From the NCBI GenBank assembly GCA_014239365.1, contig JAAZZB010000051.1, positions 1 to 64,000 of the forward strand: DNA of 64,000 nucleotides. The letters run 5' to 3'. Source of the DNA: Verrucomicrobiia bacterium. Its GTDB lineage: Bacteria > Verrucomicrobiota > Verrucomicrobiia > Limisphaerales > UBA1100. A model generated the notes under the pieces. That model was not told the DNA's origin and searched no databases. It worked only from the letters and a program-made list of their open reading frames with translations. A program made the translations under genes and the position numbers. Shown here in pieces: positions 600 to 60,194 of the stretch. Within the stretch, counting starts at the first letter, position 1. Each line of letters opens with the position of its first letter.

Positions 600-3449
600 A
601 TGAATTATAAAGACACCCTCAATTTGCCGAAGACCGGTTTTCCCATGAAAGCCGGCCTCGTGCAGCGCGAGCCCGAACGCCTCGAGCAATGGTACGCCGA
701 GAACATCCACGACCGCATCCGTGCCCGCCACGCCAAGGCCGCCGAATCATTCATCCTCCACGACGGCCCGCCCTTCGCCAATGGCGACGTGCACATCGGC
801 ACGGCCCTCAACAAAACGCTCAAGGATTTCATCCTAAAATTCCAAACGATGCGTGGCAAAAATGTGCCGTACGTTCCCGGCTGGGATTGCCACGGACTGC
901 CCATCGAATTCAAAGTGATGCAGGATCTCCGAAAGGAAAATCGGCAGGACGCCACCGCCGCAGAGATCCGCACCGCCTGCGAAGCGTACGCCCTCAAGTA
1001 CATCGACATCCAACGCGAACAGTTCAAACGCCTCGGCGTCTTCGGCGATTGGGATAATCCCTACCTCACGCTCGACAAAAAATACGAAGCCGAAGAGCTG
1101 CGCCTCTTTGCCGATCTCGTCGAAAAAGGCTTCGTCTATCGCGGCAAAAAACCCGTCTACTGGAGCATCCCCTGTCGCACCGCCCTCGCCGAGGCCGAAG
1201 TGGAATACGCCGATCACATCAGCCAAAGTGTGTTCGTGAAATTTCCCGTCAATGGTGAAGACAACACGCACCTCCTCATTTGGACCACCACGCCGTGGAC
1301 GCTTCCCGCCAATCTCGCGGTGGCGTACAACTCGCGGTTCACTTACAAAAAAGTGCGCGTCAATGGCGAGCAATACATCGTCGAAAGCACGCTACTTCCG
1401 ACCGTTGCCAAAACGTGCGGCTGGGAAAACATCGAGGAAATGCAGTCGCTCAACGGCGATGAAGTTGGCGCGTTGGAATACCGCCATCCGTTCATCGACA
1501 AAACCGCCAAGCTTTTTGCCGGCGACAACTTTGTCGAAAACACCACCGGCACCGGCTTCGTCCACGTCGCGCCCGGACACGGCATGGACGATTACCACCT
1601 CGGCTGCGCGAATGGCCTGCCGATTTTTTGCCCCGTCGATGACGATGGAAAATTCGCCCACACTGATGACTTGCCCGTGGCCGAACAAATGCCCGCCGCG
1701 TTGCTCGGCAAATCCATTCTCGAAAAGAAAGGCAAAAGCGAAGCCAACGAAGCAGTGCTCGAATTGCTCCGCGAGAAATCCGCGCTCGTGCATCAGGAAA
1801 ATTATACGCACAGCTACCCGCATTGTTGGCGCAGCAAAACGCCCGTCATCTTTCGCGGCATGGATCAATGGTTCATTAACATCGATCACAACGGCTTTCG
1901 CCAAACCGCACTGAACGCCATCGACGACGTGAACTGGGTTCCCGACTGGGGCAAAGCCCGCATCCAAGGCGCCGTCGAGTCACGCCCCGATTGGTGCATC
2001 AGCCGCCAACGCACGTGGGGCGTGCCCATCCCCGCCTTTTACAATGCCGATGGCGAGCCGCTGCTCGACGCCCGCATCGTCCGCAACACCGCCGACCTCA
2101 TCGAACAACACGGCTCCAACGTTTGGTTCGAGCGCGACACCACCGAACTCTGGGCCGACGTTCGCCCCGACGATTGGACCGGCGATGCCCCGACCAAAAA
2201 ATCCACCGACACCCTCGACGTCTGGATCGATTCCGGCTCCAGCTCCCGCGCCGTATTAATGCAGCGCAAGGAACTAACGCGCCCAAGTGCTGCCGGCATC
2301 TTGCCGGCAGAAGACAGCCCTGAATCTGCCGGCAAGATGCCGGCAGCACAATGGCGAGCCGACATTTACCTCGAAGGCAGCGACCAACATCGCGGTTGGT
2401 TCCAAAGTTCGCTGCTGATCTCCCTCGCCGGCAATGGCGCGCCACCATACAAAACCGTCCTCACTCACGGTTTTATGGTCGATGCCGATCGCGAAAAAAT
2501 TGCCAAAAGCAATCAAGGCAAAAGCACCAAACCACAAACCAGCGAAGCCTACATCGGCGAGTACGGCGCGGACATCGTGCGCCTGTGGATTGCCTCGCAG
2601 GATTTCCGAAACGACATCACCGTCAGCACCGAGCGCATCAAAAAAGTTGCCGAAACCTATCGCAACCTCCGCAACGCCCTGCGCTATCAGCTCAGCAATC
2701 TTTACGATTTCGATCCCGCGCAACACACCGTGCCCGATGCCGACCTCACCGGCCTCGACCGCTGGATGCTCGATCAATTCAGCACGATGCAACACGACGT
2801 CTCCGCCGCTTACGAGCGCTTCGAGTACCACGTCGTTTACCAACGCATCAGCCAGTTTGCGTCCGTAGAACTCTCCGCTATCTATCACGACTGCATCAAA
2901 GACCGCCTCTACGCCGACGCCGCCAATGCCCCCAGCCGCCGCGCCGCACAAACTACGCTGCACCGACTCGCCACCGGCCTCACTCGAATGCTCGCGCCCA
3001 TCTGCGTCTTCACCGCCGAAGAAGCGTGGGGATTTCTGCCGGGCAATAATGTAGATTCCATCCACCTTGCCGATTGGCCCGCTGAACATTTTGAAATGCC
3101 CGCCGAAGAAAAAACAGTGTGGCAAACCCTCTTCGCCCACCGCGAACCCGCCCTCGCCGAATTAGAAAAAGCCCGCCAGGAAAAACAAATCGGCAAAGCC
3201 CTCGAAGCCCGCGTCACCCTCACGGCCCCCGATCTCGCCACCGCCCAAGCCCACGCCGAACCCCTGCGCGAGCTCATCAACATTTCCCAACTCGAATTGG
3301 TCGAAGACAAATCCGCCGAAGCCGCAACTTACACCGTCACCAAAGCCCACGGCGAAAAATGCACCCGCTGCTGGCGCTGGGAAGAAACCGTCGGTCAACA
3401 CGAAGCGCACCCGGAATGCTGCACGAGGTGCGTGGATGCTGTGTCTTAA
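600..3449 (+). CDS. ileS: Isoleucyl-tRNA synthetase carrying an in-frame palindromic repeat
   Basis: Class I aminoacyl-tRNA synthetase that charges tRNA-Ile, 949 residues, close to the usual bacterial length. I chose the ATG at 600 because the protein then begins MNYKDTLNLPKTGFPM, matching the conserved start of bacterial IleS; a GTG at 567 would add eleven unlikely residues. Visible motifs are HIGT at residues 65-68 (variant of HIGH), DVWIDSG, YLEGSDQHRGWF, a KIAKS variant of KMSKS, and a C-terminal zinc site with two CxxC pairs (CTRCW and CCTRC). Residues 563-583 (bases 2287-2349) are translated from a family A inverted repeat placed just before the YLEGSDQHRGWF block; E. coli IleS has nothing comparable there. 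The 3' end overlaps the stop of the convergent membrane-protein gene. Confidence 0.97.
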   Translation: MNYKDTLNLPKTGFPMKAGLVQREPERLEQWYAENIHDRIRARHAKAAESFILHDGPPFANGDVHIGTALNKTLKDFILKFQTMRGKNVPYVPGWDCHGLPIEFKVMQDLRKENRQDATAAEIRTACEAYALKYIDIQREQFKRLGVFGDWDNPYLTLDKKYEAEELRLFADLVEKGFVYRGKKPVYWSIPCRTALAEAEVEYADHISQSVFVKFPVNGEDNTHLLIWTTTPWTLPANLAVAYNSRFTYKKVRVNGEQYIVESTLLPTVAKTCGWENIEEMQSLNGDEVGALEYRHPFIDKTAKLFAGDNFVENTTGTGFVHVAPGHGMDDYHLGCANGLPIFCPVDDDGKFAHTDDLPVAEQMPAALLGKSILEKKGKSEANEAVLELLREKSALVHQENYTHSYPHCWRSKTPVIFRGMDQWFINIDHNGFRQTALNAIDDVNWVPDWGKARIQGAVESRPDWCISRQRTWGVPIPAFYNADGEPLLDARIVRNTADLIEQHGSNVWFERDTTELWADVRPDDWTGDAPTKKSTDTLDVWIDSGSSSRAVLMQRKELTRPSAAGILPAEDSPESAGKMPAAQWRADIYLEGSDQHRGWFQSSLLISLAGNGAPPYKTVLTHGFMVDADREKIAKSNQGKSTKPQTSEAYIGEYGADIVRLWIASQDFRNDITVSTERIKKVAETYRNLRNALRYQLSNLYDFDPAQHTVPDADLTGLDRWMLDQFSTMQHDVSAAYERFEYHVVYQRISQFASVELSAIYHDCIKDRLYADAANAPSRRAAQTTLHRLATGLTRMLAPICVFTAEEAWGFLPGNNVDSIHLADWPAEHFEMPAEEKTVWQTLFAHREPALAELEKARQEKQIGKALEARVTLTAPDLATAQAHAEPLRELINISQLELVEDKSAEAATYTVTKAHGEKCTRCWRWEETVGQHEAHPECCTRCVDAVS
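2287..2349. repeat. Family A inverted repeat inside ileS
   Basis: Two perfect 25-base inverted arms lie at 2287-2311 and 2325-2349, separated by 13 bases. Each arm itself holds two GCCGGC palindromes. The element is a multiple of three in effect and keeps the ileS frame open, adding the peptide SAAGILPAE...SAGKMPAA. The same arms occur at 8652, 38522, 48932 and 55288. Confidence 0.95.
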
Positions 3450-5895: not shown

Positions 5896-7832
5896 CACTT
5901 GTAACTCCGTTGCGTCATCTTCACTTCTTCGTATTCAAGATTCTCCTTGTGAAGCTCAGGCGCTTGATCGGCTCCCTTGTATTCCCACGCGCCGACGAAG
6001 GAGAAATGTTCATCGTCGCGTTTGGCTTCGCCTTCGGGGGTTTGGTGTTCCTCGCGGAAATGTCCGCCGCAGGATTCTTCACGTTGCAGCGCGTCGCGAC
6101 ACATCAATTCGCCAAACTCCAGAAAATCCGCCACGCGCCCGGCGTGCTCAAGGCTTTGATTAAGCGAACCATTTTCGCCGGGCACATTGAGATTCTCCCA
6201 AAATTCCGCGCGCAACTCGGGAATCTTTTTAATGGCCTCTTCCAGCCCCGCTTTGTTGCGCGCCATCCCGCACTTATCCCACATAATTTGGCCAAGCTCA
6301 CGATGAAATGAGGTCGGCGTGCGTTTGCCTTTAATGGACAGCATTTGATCAATCTGCCCACGCACTTTTTCTTCCGCACCGGCAAACTCGCTACCATCGG
6401 CGCTGGGCCGACCGTCCGGCCCCACCTCTGCGAGGTATTGGCCAATGGTGTACGGCAGCACAAAATATCCATCCGCCAAGCCCTGCATCAACGCGCTCGC
6501 GCCCAAACGGTTTGCCCCGTGATCGGAAAAATTTGCCTCACCCACCACGTACAAACCGGGCACGTTGCTCATCAAATTGTAATCCACCCACAGCCCGCCC
6601 ATCGTATAATGCACAGCGGGGAAAATGGTCATCGGATTTTTGTACGCGTTGCTGCCGGTAATTTTTTCGTACATATCGAAAAGGTTTCCGTACCGCTCGC
6701 GCACCGCGGACTCGCCCAATCGGCCGATAGCATCTTCAAAATCCAAATACACGCCCAACCCAGAACCCACCACGCCACGGCCGTCGTCGCACGCTTCCTT
6801 TGCGTTCCGCGACGCCACATCGCGTGGCACGAGATTGCCGAAGCTGGGGTACTTGCGTTCGAGATAATAATCGCGATCGGCATCCGCCACATCGCTCGCC
6901 TTCAGCTCACCGCTGCGAATTTGTTCCGCAACCACCTGACTTTTTGGCACCCACACGCGGCCATCGTTCCGGAGCGATTCGCTCATCAACGTGAGCTTGC
7001 TCTGATGCTCGCCGCTCACCGGAATGCAAGTGGGATGAATCTGCGTGTAACACGGATTAGCAAACGCCGCGCCGTGCTTGTACGCGCGGAACGCCGCCGT
7101 GACATTGCAGCCCATCGCGTTGGTGGAAAGGAAAAATGCGTTGCCGTAGCCGCCGGTGGCGAGCACCACCGCGTGCGCGGAGTGGCGGCTGATTTCGCCG
7201 GTCACCATATCGCGCACCACGATCCCCTTCGCGTGGCCATCCACCAAAACCACATCGAGCATTTCTGTGCGCGGAAACATCTGCACTTTGCCGAGGCCAA
7301 TTTGCCGACTCAACGACGAGTACGCGCCGAGCAATAATTGCTGCCCCGTCTGGCCGCGTGCATAAAAAGTTCGGCTCACCTGCGCACCGCCAAAAGAACG
7401 ATTGGCCAACAACCCGCCGTACTCGCGCGCGAAGGGCACGCCTTGCGCCGCGCATTGATCAATGATGTTTACACTCACTTGCGCCAGCCGATGCACGTTA
7501 GCCTCGCGCGAGCGGTAGTCGCCGCCTTTCACGGTATCGTAAAAAAGCCGATGCACGCTGTCGCCGTCGTTCTGATAATTCTTGGCCGCGTTGATGCCTC
7601 CCTGCGCGGCGATGGAATGCGCGCGCCGCGGGCTATCCTGAAAACAAAAACACTTCACGTTATAGCCCAACTCCGCCAACGTGGCCGCCGCCGAAGCGCC
7701 CGCCAAGCCGCTACCCACCACGATGACCTCGTACTTCCGCTTGTTCGCGGGGTTCACCAGCTTCAAGTCAAACTGATGCTTATCCCATTTCTGGGCCATC
7801 GGGCCGGACGGAATTTTGGCGTCGAGATTCAT
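5895..7832 (-). CDS. sdhA: Succinate dehydrogenase flavoprotein subunit
   Basis: Catalytic subunit of succinate dehydrogenase/fumarate reductase, 645 residues. The N-terminal FAD-binding fold is visible ([17 protein letters not shown]), with the conserved histidine for covalent FAD in [16 protein letters not shown]. Further conserved pieces are [26 protein letters not shown] and [20 protein letters not shown] followed by [15 protein letters not shown]. The form resembles the enzymes of Bacteroidetes and epsilon-proteobacteria, which work with a single-subunit di-heme cytochrome b. It lies one base after sdhC and overlaps sdhB. Direction of the reaction in the cell cannot be read from sequence. 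Confidence 0.97.
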
Positions 7833-8651: not shown

Positions 8652-8703
8652 GTGCTGCCGGCATCTTGCCGGCAGAAGTTGCGCCTCCGATCTGCCGGCA
8701 GCA
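8652..8703. repeat. Family A inverted repeat with an internally deleted arm
   Basis: The left arm (8652-8676) is a full 25-base copy. The right arm (8691-8703) matches the start and end of the full arm but lacks 11 central bases, as expected for recombination between its two internal GCCGGC copies. It lies between the divergent sdhC and JAMM-like genes. Confidence 0.85.
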
Positions 8704-37516: not shown

Positions 37517-38518
37517 ATGTCTTGGAACATCTTAGCCACCCCGGGCACGATTGCTGGAATTGGGGCCGAATCCGCCGATTTTATGCGTAAAAACGGCTGT
37601 AAAGTTACTATTACCAAACCCTTTCGCGCCCAATCGGCAGCGGATTTGCAGCCATTGTTGGCCGACATTCAGGCGGTCTATGCGGGGCCGGATGAGTTTT
37701 CAGCTGAATTATTGGCGAGTCCGGAGGCGGCTGAATTGCGAATTATTTCCCGTTGGGGAGTGGGTTTTGATCGGATTGATGTGGACGCCGCCACGGCGCA
37801 CGGCATCGTGGTCGCTACCACGCCCGCGATGCTCGATGAGGCGGTGGCGGATTACACCTTCGCGCTGCTGCTCGGCATCGCGCGCCGCATCCACACCGCG
37901 CACGCCTCGATGAGCGCTGGCGAATGGGCACCGCAATGGGGGCACGATGTGCACGGCAAAACGCTGGGCATCATCGGCTGCGGCCGCATCGGCACAGCGG
38001 TGGCTCGGCGCGCGGCGGGGTTTAATTTGCGCGTCTTGACGTGTGACCCAGTTCCAAATGAGGCCGCCAAAAAATTAGGCGTGGAATTTGTGCCGCTTGA
38101 ATCGCTGCTCGCGCAAAGTGATTTTGTTTCGCTGCACGCCGCGGTGACGCCCAAAACTCAAGGGCTCATTGGCGAAGCGCAATTAAATTTGATGAAGCCG
38201 GACGCGTATCTCATCAACACCGGCCGGGGCGCGTTGGTAGATGAAGCCGCGCTGGCGCGGGCGCTGAATGAGGATGACATCGCGGGGGCAGCGGTGGATG
38301 CATTTGTGGAAGAGCCATTGCCGAAAGAGCATCCGTTTCGCACGGCAAAAAATCTTTTACTCGCGCCGCATCAAGCGGCGTTTTCAAATGAGACCGGCCG
38401 CAAAGTCAGTGCCGCTTGCGCGGAGACGATTGTGGATTTGATGCACGGCATACGGCCGAAGATGGTTTTGAATCCGGAGGTGTTTGATTCGCCCAAGCTT
38501 CGGGTGCAGTTGCAGTGA
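37517..38518 (+). CDS. D-3-phosphoglycerate dehydrogenase-like 2-hydroxyacid dehydrogenase
   Basis: A 333-residue NAD-dependent D-2-hydroxyacid dehydrogenase. The Rossmann motif is LGIIGCGRIGTAVARRAAG near residue 150, with SRWGVGFDRID before it, LINTGRGALVDEAAL and the catalytic histidine in APHQAAF. It lacks the C-terminal ACT domain of full SerA, so the substrate is uncertain. It is divergent from the suf regulator and shares the palindrome-bearing promoter region, so co-regulation by that repressor is possible. Confidence 0.88.
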   Translation: MSWNILATPGTIAGIGAESADFMRKNGCKVTITKPFRAQSAADLQPLLADIQAVYAGPDEFSAELLASPEAAELRIISRWGVGFDRIDVDAATAHGIVVATTPAMLDEAVADYTFALLLGIARRIHTAHASMSAGEWAPQWGHDVHGKTLGIIGCGRIGTAVARRAAGFNLRVLTCDPVPNEAAKKLGVEFVPLESLLAQSDFVSLHAAVTPKTQGLIGEAQLNLMKPDAYLINTGRGALVDEAALARALNEDDIAGAAVDAFVEEPLPKEHPFRTAKNLLLAPHQAAFSNETGRKVSAACAETIVDLMHGIRPKMVLNPEVFDSPKLRVQLQ

Positions 38519-38521
38519 GGG

Positions 38522-38546
38522 TCTGCCGGCAAGATGCCGGCAGCAC
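38522..38546. repeat. Single family A arm between convergent genes
   Basis: One full 25-base arm (TCTGCCGGC...GCAGCAC) lies four bases after the dehydrogenase stop and four before the nifJ stop. The inverted partner is missing, leaving only the internal GCCGGC palindromes. Confidence 0.9.
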
Positions 38547-44157: not shown

Positions 44158-44376
44158 ATTCCCGAAGGGAATCAATAACAATAGCCCCGGGTGAAACCCG
44201 GGGAATGCAGTTTGAATTCAAAGCAACCCCGAATGGGGTTGAACCGTTTCCGCCGACCTTCAACCCCGTTGGGGTTGCTCCAATTTGAACCGGTTATCCC
44301 CGGGTTACACCCGGGGCTATTTTTGTTCCATCCCTTCGGGATGGCCATTTGAAACCTTCGGGATGGCCGTTTGAAA
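44158..44376. repeat. Family E cluster of six nested palindromes
   Basis: Between the UreF-like gene and yebC lie six short perfect hairpins: 44158-44172 (ATTCCC-GAA-GGGAAT), 44185-44203 (CCCCGGGT-GAA-ACCCGGGG), 44224-44241 and 44261-44277 (CAACCCC...GGGGTTG), 44298-44316 (CCCCGGGT-TAC-ACCCGGGG) and 44329-44343 (CATCCC-TTC-GGGATG). The outer ATAGCCCCGGGT and ACCCGGGGCTAT are themselves inverted, and a GGGATGGCC(A/G)TTTGAAA unit is directly repeated at 44338 and 44360. Confidence 0.92.
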
Positions 44377-44388
44377 AAATCGCACACC

Positions 44389-45146
<758 letters not shown>

Positions 45147-48930: not shown

Positions 48931-48931
48931 C

Positions 48932-49005
48932 GTGCTGCCGGCATCTTGCCGGCAGATTGAAAATGAGCGCGCGCGCAAGACCTGCCGGCAAGATGCCGGC
49001 AGCAC
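48932..49005. repeat. Family A inverted repeat between convergent genes
   Basis: Full arms at 48932-48956 and 48981-49005 are separated by 24 bases; the right arm has one change at its first base (CCTG for TCTG). The element fills the gap between the PQQ-repeat gene and the porin gene. Confidence 0.95.
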
Positions 49006-53521: not shown

Positions 53522-55336
53522 GTGAGCCTCAACCCCGCCAGACTCCAAACCGCGTTGGCAACCGCCCGCCAAGCCCTCCTCGCCGAGCGCAACGCCGACG
53601 GCCATTGGAACGGCCAACTCTCCAGCAGCGCCCTCGCCACCGCCACCGCCGTCGTCGCGCTGCAACAAGTCCAAACCCACACCGACGCCGATCATTCCCC
53701 TTATATAAAGGGCGGCCTCGATTGGCTCGCCGCTAACGCCAACCCCGACGGCGGCTGGGGCGACTCCACCAAAAGCAAAAGCAACATTTCCACCACCACA
53801 CTGTGTTGGGCTGCGTTCGCAAATGCCCCCGAAAAATACGCCGCCACTGTGGCCGCCGCCGAAACTTGGCTCACCAACGCCGCCGGTGGCATCACGCCCG
53901 AAAAACTCGCGCCCGCCATCATCCGCCGCTACGGCAAAGATCGCACTTTTTCCATTCCCATCCTCACCCACTGCGCCCTCGCCGGCAAAATCGATTGGGC
54001 CGATGTGCGACCGCTGCCCTTTGAACTCGCCGCGCTGCCGCAAAGTTGGTTCGGCGCGCTGCGGTTGCCGGTGGTCAGCTACGCGCTGCCCGCGCTCATC
54101 GCCATTGGCCAGTGCCGCCATCACCATCGACCCACGCGCAATCCCATCACGCGCATCCTCCGCAACGTCACGCGCAACAAAACGCTGAACGTGTTGGAGC
54201 GCGTCCAGCCCTCCAACGGCGGGTTTCTGGAAGCAACGCCGCTCACCAGCTTCGTGACCATGAGCCTCGCGGGCAGCGGACTCGCCAATCATCCCGTCGC
54301 GAAAAAAGGCGTCGCCTTTATTTTGGATTCCGCCCGCGCCGATGGCAGTTGGCCTATCGACACAAACCTCGCCACGTGGGTGACCACGCTTGCCGTCAAT
54401 GCCCTCGGCAATGCCTTGCCCACTGAAGCGCGCGCGCCCGTTCGCGATTGGCTCCTCGCCCAGCAATATCGCGAGGTGCATCCGTACACCCTCGCCGCGC
54501 CGGGCGGTTGGGCGTGGACGCCTCTGCCCGGTGGCGTGCCCGATGCCGACGACACCCCCGGCGCATTGCTCGCGCTAAAAAATCTCGGCGACCTCACCGC
54601 CGCCACCCGCGAAGCCGCGCGCCTCGGCTGCACGTGGCTGCTCGATTTGCAAAACCGCGATGGCGGCATCCCCACATTTTGCCGTGGCTGGACCAACCTC
54701 CCATTCGACCGCTCCAGCCCCGACCTCACCGCCCACACCCTCCGCGCGTGGCTCGCGTGGCGCGATGAATTGCCCGAACTGCAAACCCGCATCGACAACG
54801 CCTTCGCACGCGGCACACGGTTTCTCGCCCAAAACGAAGGTGCGGGAATGGATGGCTGGGCACCGTTGTGGTTTGGCAACCAACACGCGCCCGACGAAAT
54901 CAACTGGACCTACGGCACCGCCAAAGTGCTGCTCGCATTAAACGAACCCGCCCAGCAAGCCCTCCCCGGCGGCGCACTGCGCGTGACCCGCGCCAAAAAC
55001 GCCCTCCTGGAAATGCAACGCACCGACGGCGCGTGGGGCGGATTCAAAGGCGGCGAACCTTCCATCGAAGAAACCGCCCTCGCACTGGAAGCCTTGGCGG
55101 ACGTGACAGAAAATGACATCGACGCGCAGGCCGCATTAGAAAAAGCCCGCGACCACGGCGCGTTGTGGCTTATTGAAAAAGTCGAAAACGGCGAATGGAC
55201 CGAGCCTTCGCCCATCGGTTTTTATTTCGCCAAACTTTGGTATTTTGAAAAGCTGTACCCGATGATCGCAACGGTGGCGGCGCTAACGTGCTGCCGGCAT
55301 CTTGCCGGCAGACCCGATGTAATCGAACATCATTGA
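53522..55336 (+). CDS. Squalene-hopene cyclase-like terpene cyclase
   Basis: A 604-residue class II triterpene-cyclase-like protein, which would cyclise squalene to hopene-type products. The DxDD acid motif is present as PDADD (residues 341-344), and several QW-type repeats are seen (DGHWNGQL, DGGWGDSTKSKSN, DGGIPTFCRGW, DGAWGGFKGGEPSIEETALAL). I prefer the GTG at 53522 because the longer frame starts inside a family C repeat. The last residues (TCCRHLAGRPDVIEHH) are read from a family A repeat; a normal end would be near YPMIATVAAL. A squalene/phytoene synthase lies at 63 kb. Some members act on other prenyl chains. Confidence 0.85.
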   Translation: MSLNPARLQTALATARQALLAERNADGHWNGQLSSSALATATAVVALQQVQTHTDADHSPYIKGGLDWLAANANPDGGWGDSTKSKSNISTTTLCWAAFANAPEKYAATVAAAETWLTNAAGGITPEKLAPAIIRRYGKDRTFSIPILTHCALAGKIDWADVRPLPFELAALPQSWFGALRLPVVSYALPALIAIGQCRHHHRPTRNPITRILRNVTRNKTLNVLERVQPSNGGFLEATPLTSFVTMSLAGSGLANHPVAKKGVAFILDSARADGSWPIDTNLATWVTTLAVNALGNALPTEARAPVRDWLLAQQYREVHPYTLAAPGGWAWTPLPGGVPDADDTPGALLALKNLGDLTAATREAARLGCTWLLDLQNRDGGIPTFCRGWTNLPFDRSSPDLTAHTLRAWLAWRDELPELQTRIDNAFARGTRFLAQNEGAGMDGWAPLWFGNQHAPDEINWTYGTAKVLLALNEPAQQALPGGALRVTRAKNALLEMQRTDGAWGGFKGGEPSIEETALALEALADVTENDIDAQAALEKARDHGALWLIEKVENGEWTEPSPIGFYFAKLWYFEKLYPMIATVAALTCCRHLAGRPDVIEHH

Positions 55337-55361
55337 TCTGCCGGCAAGATGCCGGCAGCAC
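55288..55361. repeat. Family A inverted repeat forming the tails of two convergent genes
   Basis: Full perfect arms at 55288-55312 and 55337-55361 with a 24-base spacer. The stop codons of the cyclase (55336) and rsmD (55330) both fall inside the element, so each gene's last 10-16 codons are repeat sequence. Confidence 0.95.
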
Positions 55362-60113: not shown

Positions 60114-60194
60114 AGTTAAAACCCAATGACCAAGAACCCAATACCCAAGGAATGACCAATTCTCAATCTCCAAAAACCTCCAATCACCAAGACC

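Follow-up and report, generated by a model that had tools for sequence, protein, structure and literature searches.

Palindromes in coding frames are already known, among them repetitive extragenic palindromes (REPs) that lie inside genes and the Rickettsia palindromic elements (RPEs), which were reportedly described by Ogata et al. in 2000. A doublet of REPs that forms a hairpin is termed a REPIN (Bertels & Rainey 2011, PMC3116915). Intragenic REP dimers of the GTAG/CGTC type encode 20-30 residues (Di Nocera et al. 2013, PMC3733652); such intragenic REPs are known in the verrucomicrobium O. terrae, for example in uvrA, and in tRNA synthetases of X. oryzae, E. lithoralis and S. alaskensis, and in recB of X. 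campestris and X. oryzae they occupy about the same site, other such genes carrying them at different sites (PMC3733652). RPEs (RPE-1 to RPE-7) are palindromic, lie in coding frames and are solvent-exposed by modelling; RPE-7 is listed in the isoleucyl-tRNA synthetase RJP_0691 of R. japonica, and the paper on this species weighed a hot spot against a single origin, favouring the latter for RPE-4, -6 and -7 while calling hot spots 'not negligible' (PMC3767692). Here we describe a REPIN-like element of 63 nucleotides (nt) that lies in frame in ileS of a Verrucomicrobiia bacterium (Limisphaerales, UBA1100), in a 64,000-nt stretch (the window) of contig JAAZZB010000051.1 of assembly GCA_014239365.1. 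This genome, labelled G000 in our series, is a metagenome-assembled genome (MAG) of 3.3 Mb in 89 contigs with 93.6% completeness.

The host gene and the parts of the element are as follows, in window coordinates:
600 to 3449, forward strand: ileS, isoleucine--tRNA ligase, 949 amino acids (NCBIfam TIGR00392, 863.5 bits, cut-off 621.4)
2287 to 2349: REPIN-like element, 63 nt, in frame, encoding (S)AAGILPAEDSPESAGKMPAA, IleS residues about 563-583
2287 to 2311, forward strand: left arm, a GTG head followed by the hairpin CTGCCGGCA-TCT-TGCCGGCAG
2312 to 2324, forward strand: spacer, 13 nt
2325 to 2349, reverse strand: right arm, the reverse complement of the left arm

A single full-length IleS was seen in G000; none of the other matches shown exceeds 35% identity, and a locus on contig C2 among them is ValS. 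An earlier note on the window had read two perfect 25-base inverted arms in ileS that keep the reading frame, and both statements were confirmed: 2287-2311 and 2325-2349 are perfect reverse complements of 25 nt (arm sequence GTGCTGCCGGCATCTTGCCGGCAGA), and the frame is open across the element, the 21 encoded residues being SAAGILPAEDSPESAGKMPAA. Each arm alone folds into a hairpin (stem 9 bp, loop TCT), and the element as a whole is therefore a doublet of hairpins resembling REPs. Folding of the 63 nt gave -35.9 kcal/mol as DNA (shuffled mean -11.0, z -12.6) and -54.8 kcal/mol as RNA, and in neither case were any of 200 shuffles as stable. The arms are free of stop codons in all six frames, so a frame-keeping copy can be translated. 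An Rfam scan at the gathering threshold returned no match at the element, a tRNA being the only match in the window.

Comparison with close relatives bears out the insertion, which is absent from ileS in all six congeners (G001-G006). Their insert-free IleS are 89-93% identical to that of G000, and the flanks of the insert continue the same gene at this identity with the frame intact. The earlier note had put the gain at about 21-26 residues; this holds for the 21 encoded residues, while the loop is by a net 15 residues longer than in G001-G003 and by 22 than in G004-G006, since the congener loops themselves differ (DKEGNEN in three, a shorter loop in three) and the insert is not a simple addition. 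In an AlphaFold model of IleS based on 39 aligned sequences (mean predicted local distance difference test score, pLDDT, 90.9), scores below 50 occur at residues 565-577 only, all within the insert, which follows the helical segment ending in AVLMQRKEL and precedes the strand 587-594 of (I)YLEGSDQHRGWF. The structure check that the note had proposed thus returned a low-confidence loop that is presumably disordered and probably solvent-exposed. The earlier note had stated that E. coli IleS has no insert here, and the lack of an insert in other bacteria was tested on distant and solved IleS. Two solved IleRS chains with a displayed alignment both have a gap of 24 residues at the insert position. 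The region measures 61 residues in G000 against 36-39 in most distant IleS read, and it is mostly 42-50 residues long across the order compared with 36-39 in most other bacteria read and 39 in three congeners, lengths to be read with the fact that the loop pattern recovered no loop in 14 of 110 IleS loci of the congener and distant sets.

The ileS insert belongs to a family that is abundant in G000. With up to two mismatches the arm occurs 53 times on the forward and 53 times on the reverse strand, compared with none for a reversed-pattern control, and reading of the loci gave 50 convergent pairs and six single arms, one pair (C42/C85) probably being a contig-end overlap counted twice. All 100 paired arms have the GTG head, the next base is C in 99 of them and a 21-nt core is nearly invariant; the commonest pair length is 64 nt (17/50). 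Most pairs (45/50) lie outside called genes, five of these overlapping a predicted gene end, and five lie in coding frames, one of them unsure. By codon-score gene calls, and leaving aside two weak single arms with 4-5 mismatches, the 56 sites comprise 33 between tandem, nine between convergent and five between divergent genes, six inside genes and three at contig edges. No target-site duplication of k>=4 was found at any of 49 pairs, and k=2-3 repeats were at the shuffled level. The flanks favour TAAT (14/98) or TTAT (9/98). TAAN precedes GTG in 22 of 98 flanks, as would be seen if the element landed on TAA stop codons, and the gap between a gene and the element on the stop-codon side is exactly 1 nt in 17 of 53 distances (for example at 48931 and 38519).

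The earlier note had counted four further loci of the same element in the window, and two of these are full pairs whereas the other two are single arms only:
48932 to 49005: full pair, 74 nt, intergenic between two convergent genes, each stop codon being 1 nt away
55288 to 55361: full pair, 74 nt, reaching into the 3' ends predicted for two convergent genes
8652 to 8678, forward strand: single arm, the second arm apparently internally deleted
38520 to 38546, reverse strand: single arm directly past the stop of a gene whose end is at 38518

At 8652-8700 the second arm reads CTGCCGGCAGCA, as if the hairpin core had been excised, and the single arms look like remnants; they resemble REPIN deletion events that have been reported (PMC3116915). 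At locus L092, about 6188-6217, one hairpin has GTG and CAC immediately at its borders. The congeners hold few arms, at most 12 per strand, which indicates that the family expanded in the G000 species. Across the order, the 24-nt arm occurs within one mismatch in 24 of 320 genomes scattered over 12 genera. Near-identical 24-nt arms were seen in distant families (e.g. G068, G252 and G290), and this likeness between sequences suggests horizontal spread or repeated reuse.

Further copies of the element are in coding frames elsewhere in G000. The codon-score scan found three pairs that run through genes, namely ileS, acnA and mqnC, with internal insertions of 63, 60 and 78 nt, and inspection of reading frames by eye added two coding copies, in the tail of hemA and at the N terminus of an mqnA-like gene. 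The inserts in ileS, acnA and mqnC all read AAGILPA...AGKMPAA, as would the 75-nt copy near the N terminus of the mqnA-like gene (PF02621, 150 bits), which is unsure since the start ATG may lie within the element. The 64-nt hemA copy is in the C-terminal tail, was entered in another frame and carries part of the peptide. The search for other proteins with the peptide, suggested by the earlier note, was therefore positive for AcnA and MqnC, probably for the MqnA-like protein and in part for the HemA tail. The hemA copy (L093:2499-2562) forms the tail of a short HemA of 358 amino acids, which matches positions 1-336 of a 416-position model, just upstream of the start of a gene named hemC-like by eye. 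On contig C58, the adjacent menaquinone (futalosine) genes mqnC and mqnA-like each hold a copy (557-634 and 2220-2294, L106).

The acnA and mqnC sites, too, are empty in relatives. The acnA site is empty in all three orthologs read across it (G001, G002 and G004), G011 having matched upstream only and weaker matches (about 30%) in other genomes having been left out. At mqnC the flanking matches are 0-6 nt apart in G002-G005, G010 and G014, and insert-free orthologs were aligned from G002, G005, G010 and G014; among the 11 genomes compared, G003, G004, G006, G011 and G012 matched without a pattern-retrieved sequence and G001 gave no match. G007 carries a different insert at the same mqnC loop, with no clear palindrome by eye. 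Empty congener sites and further in-frame copies together support the claim of the earlier note that, as far as sequences can indicate, the element can enter coding DNA and be tolerated there.

By its anatomy, a doublet of REP hairpins, the element is a REPIN and not a Rickettsia RPE. With the REPINs described by Bertels & Rainey (PMC3116915) it shares two short inverted palindromes with a short spacer (the 50 convergent pairs), a high copy number, an excess of doublets over singles (50 pairs versus six), a mostly extragenic position and the lack of an internal transposase, and it leaves no target-site duplication; this architecture fits a REPIN. The likening to RPEs made in the earlier note is right as an analogy, there being palindromic repeats in frame in ileS, acnA and mqnC here and in coding frames that include isoleucyl-tRNA synthetase there (PMC3767692), but not as membership: RPEs are longer (68-192 nt), no REP doublet is described there, and the two, from different phyla, are likened by description. 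A search of G000 with PF01797 found four Y1_Tnp genes resembling REP-associated tyrosine transposases (RAYTs), each amid its own inverted hairpin pairs:
C81, position 16245: RAYT-like gene
C17, position 47783: RAYT-like gene
C3, position 10681: RAYT-like gene
C58, position 6792: RAYT-like gene
These four (loci L009-L012), with their distinct hairpins, look like several separate REP systems in one genome.

The loop that holds the element in G000 (loop A) is occupied repeatedly across the order. We searched 245 genomes of Limisphaerales, of which 218 matched and 148 had a recorded place, the 97 without one (27 of them without a match) being outside the count. At least 14 of these 148 genomes, G000 included, have an inverted REP-like doublet in frame in the same IleS loop, a lower bound in that loci spanning at least 570 nt were read, shorter ones partly read and the others judged by span:
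Loop A carriers: G000, G024, G051, G055, G088, G093, G095, G098, G141, G155, G165, G169, G189 and G235

The sequences of these elements mostly differ between genomes, as do their heads (GTAG, GTGG, GGAG, GCAG or GTGC; outside G000 mostly one of the first three). Three species of genus g46 have three different loop A elements, and in each of g19 and g41 two species carry two different elements. The start lies exactly 9 nt past the EL codon in nine of 14 cases, and the flanking nucleotides vary between insertions. In a tree of 89 IleS computed without the loop, presence of the element needs 13 changes, which may be gains or losses, 11 of them forced by supported branches; the tree is from FastTree only and the 89 rows are enriched for long loops, for which most were chosen. 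Thirteen changes are at the level of shuffled labels (mean 13.3; 273 of 500 as low), so presence is not clustered. Loop A (4,980 nt) has 21 hairpins with a stem of at least 8 and a loop of 3-4, compared with 30 in the rest (241,938 nt), some of the latter at site B (see below). A composite query of 12 loop A elements found 7 to 81 matches on both strands in each of the 13 other genomes, G141 and G051, for instance, each holding dozens of matches to their own element, although a composite query cannot tell, genome by genome, whether the ileS element itself is the one in many copies. Loop A is filled by short, non-palindromic tandem repeats in other species of the order.

Different REPINs at the same ileS nucleotide in sister species point to independent insertions. 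Whereas the intragenic GTAG/CGTC REPs mostly occupy different sites, one and the same IleS loop was struck here in 14 or more species, for the most part by elements of unlike sequence. Unlike for RPEs, both the tree and the different elements of sister species support independent insertion. Searches of open-access papers, mostly of their listings, turned up no account of REPINs entering ileS of Verrucomicrobiota repeatedly and independently. The element family itself is new, as is the finding that the same loops were used several times over by independent insertions.

A second IleS loop, site B, lies between IDH and FRQ. It is a turn of two residues in 46 of 89 rows (15 rows do not fit the site B pattern). 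Similar elements occupy it in 11 genomes in which the element ends were measured, and eight of these elements have their right end exactly 1 nt short of the F codon. G189 and G095 carry elements in both IleS loops; in G189 (L242) the two REPINs in the one ileS are closely similar. The counts for loops A and B come from reading sequences because our REPIN-like detector gives false matches in ileS (29 found, nine in codon-shuffled copies). ValS, taken as a negative control, failed as one, with 28 REPIN-like pairs in 19 of 47 open reading frames (ORFs) compared with one in codon-shuffled copies, a count that is enriched, 20 stretches with long or split frames having been fetched deliberately, and in which some pairs look like chance by eye. 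ValS thus also carries pairs, and the pattern is not peculiar to IleS. ValS frames from relatives in the order (L349-L368) reach 1166 codons against 890 in G000, and their REPIN-like pairs recur around ORF codons 216-263 and 393-471.

We consider it highly probable that a REPIN-like palindrome was amplified in the G000 species, entered ileS after the split from the sequenced congeners and survives there in a tolerant loop. Most likely a Y1 transposase of the RAYT/TnpA-REP type would have mobilized the element in trans in the form of a single-stranded hairpin; this class is present in G000, as judged from its four Y1_Tnp genes with inverted hairpins. The in-frame copy is presumably translated in the cell and may survive because the loop, which is predicted to be disordered and is probably exposed to solvent, appears tolerant of sequence. 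Selection would purge frame-breaking copies, so that across the order different REPIN families would land again and again in a few tolerant loops, the present one included; the three internal inserts are all multiples of 3, in contrast to 16 of 50 pairs in the family, and the unsure 75-nt mqnA-like copy would fit as well.

Several observations weigh against this account or parts of it, or set the element apart from described REPINs. Five of its 50 pairs are in coding frames (one unsure), its head is GTG(C) and not the GTAG head tetranucleotide of REPs, and a RAYT flanked by the element's own hairpin (GTGCTGCCGGCATCTTGCCGGCAG) was not found in the 93.6% complete G000. PF01797 had matches in five of nine related genomes, none as a cognate transposase, and tblastn with 13 RAYT proteins found none at 30 element loci of the order and their flanks of up to 1.5 kb, nor in the other loci fetched. 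Exchange of loop A elements between lineages is possible, since G088 and G235, from different families, have an almost identical element (96%), and G055 and G189, also from different families, have the right arm in common and almost the same right flank (CGAAAAATGG in G189). The exact left offsets in nine of 14 elements could reflect targeting rather than tolerance, and the two are not fully separated as sources of such sharp offsets.

Targeting would mean a hot spot, in which the transposase or a local single-stranded structure prefers the loop DNA and recurrence reflects insertion bias more than tolerance. The common start nucleotide in loop A (9/14) and the common end at site B, 1 nt before the codons for FR (8/11), speak for it, whereas the flanking nucleotides vary between insertions, the two-residue turn usual at site B (46/89) may set the position by structure alone, ValS loops and other genes are struck too, and the flanks of the G000 family elsewhere prefer TAAT or TTAT to loop sequence; we regard a hot spot as possible but rather unlikely. 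A single old insertion in the lineage that later diverged, as the R. japonica paper favours for RPE-4, -6 and -7, would agree with a loop region that is mostly longer across the order (mostly 42-50 versus 36-39 residues). Sister species are, however, without the element or have different ones at the same point (three in g46, two each in g19 and g41), and we give this origin almost no weight; as one old event it is contradicted for the palindromes by the congeners and the tree.

It is improbable that the insert was selected for a function, its strong RNA hairpin or its peptide tuning translation, folding or tRNA handling of IleS. Although the RNA hairpin is stable (-54.8 kcal/mol) and gain recurs in one essential enzyme, six congeners with 89-93% identical IleS manage without the insert, inserted peptides and lengths vary widely, non-palindromic repeats occupy the same loop elsewhere, and the same frame and peptide occur in unrelated G000 enzymes. 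We likewise see little probability in a miniature inverted-repeat transposable element (MITE) of a cut-and-paste (DDE) transposon instead of a REPIN: such MITEs are also short and non-autonomous with inverted termini, here GTG...CAC without coding capacity, but 49 pairs lack the target-site duplication that would mark them, each arm is itself a hairpin and the copies are mostly downstream of genes, like REPs. An assembly or binning artefact, with the repeat misjoined inside ileS of the MAG, gains some credit from the multi-contig assembly and from at least one other copy at a contig break (C42/C85); it is nevertheless very improbable given flanks that continue the same gene at 89-93% identity in an intact frame and comparable in-frame inserts in the same loop of other genomes.

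The window also has inverted repeats unrelated to the ileS element at 14012-14043, 19012-19076, 21128-21202 and 44160-44341 (e.g. CGGACTCGCAAGCTCGTCCCTCCATT and AGACACGGATTTCACAGATTTTCACGGATT), as well as tandem arrays at 44386-44433 and 60194-60263 of a 7-mer (ACCCTCA) and a 14-mer (CATTGGAACTTGCT); elsewhere in the order, some species have their IleS loop occupied by short tandem repeats akin to these arrays.

In proteins of Verrucomicrobiota, a peptide like AGILPA or AGKMPAA can stem from a repeat and need not be a domain. The question of a hot spot or one old event, weighed for RPEs (PMC3767692), can be tackled in this order, whose IleS and ValS offer a ready series of insert-bearing and insert-free essential orthologs for measuring cost, disorder and loss. 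For selfish DNA, the IleS loop appears to be an unusually safe site of insertion. Loops of essential enzymes might even act as refuges for REPINs, where in-frame copies resist imprecise deletion and loops would collect and swap families across the order, a tentative idea that we hold to be unlikely. If true, refuge loops would be a standing route by which selfish DNA lengthens housekeeping proteins.

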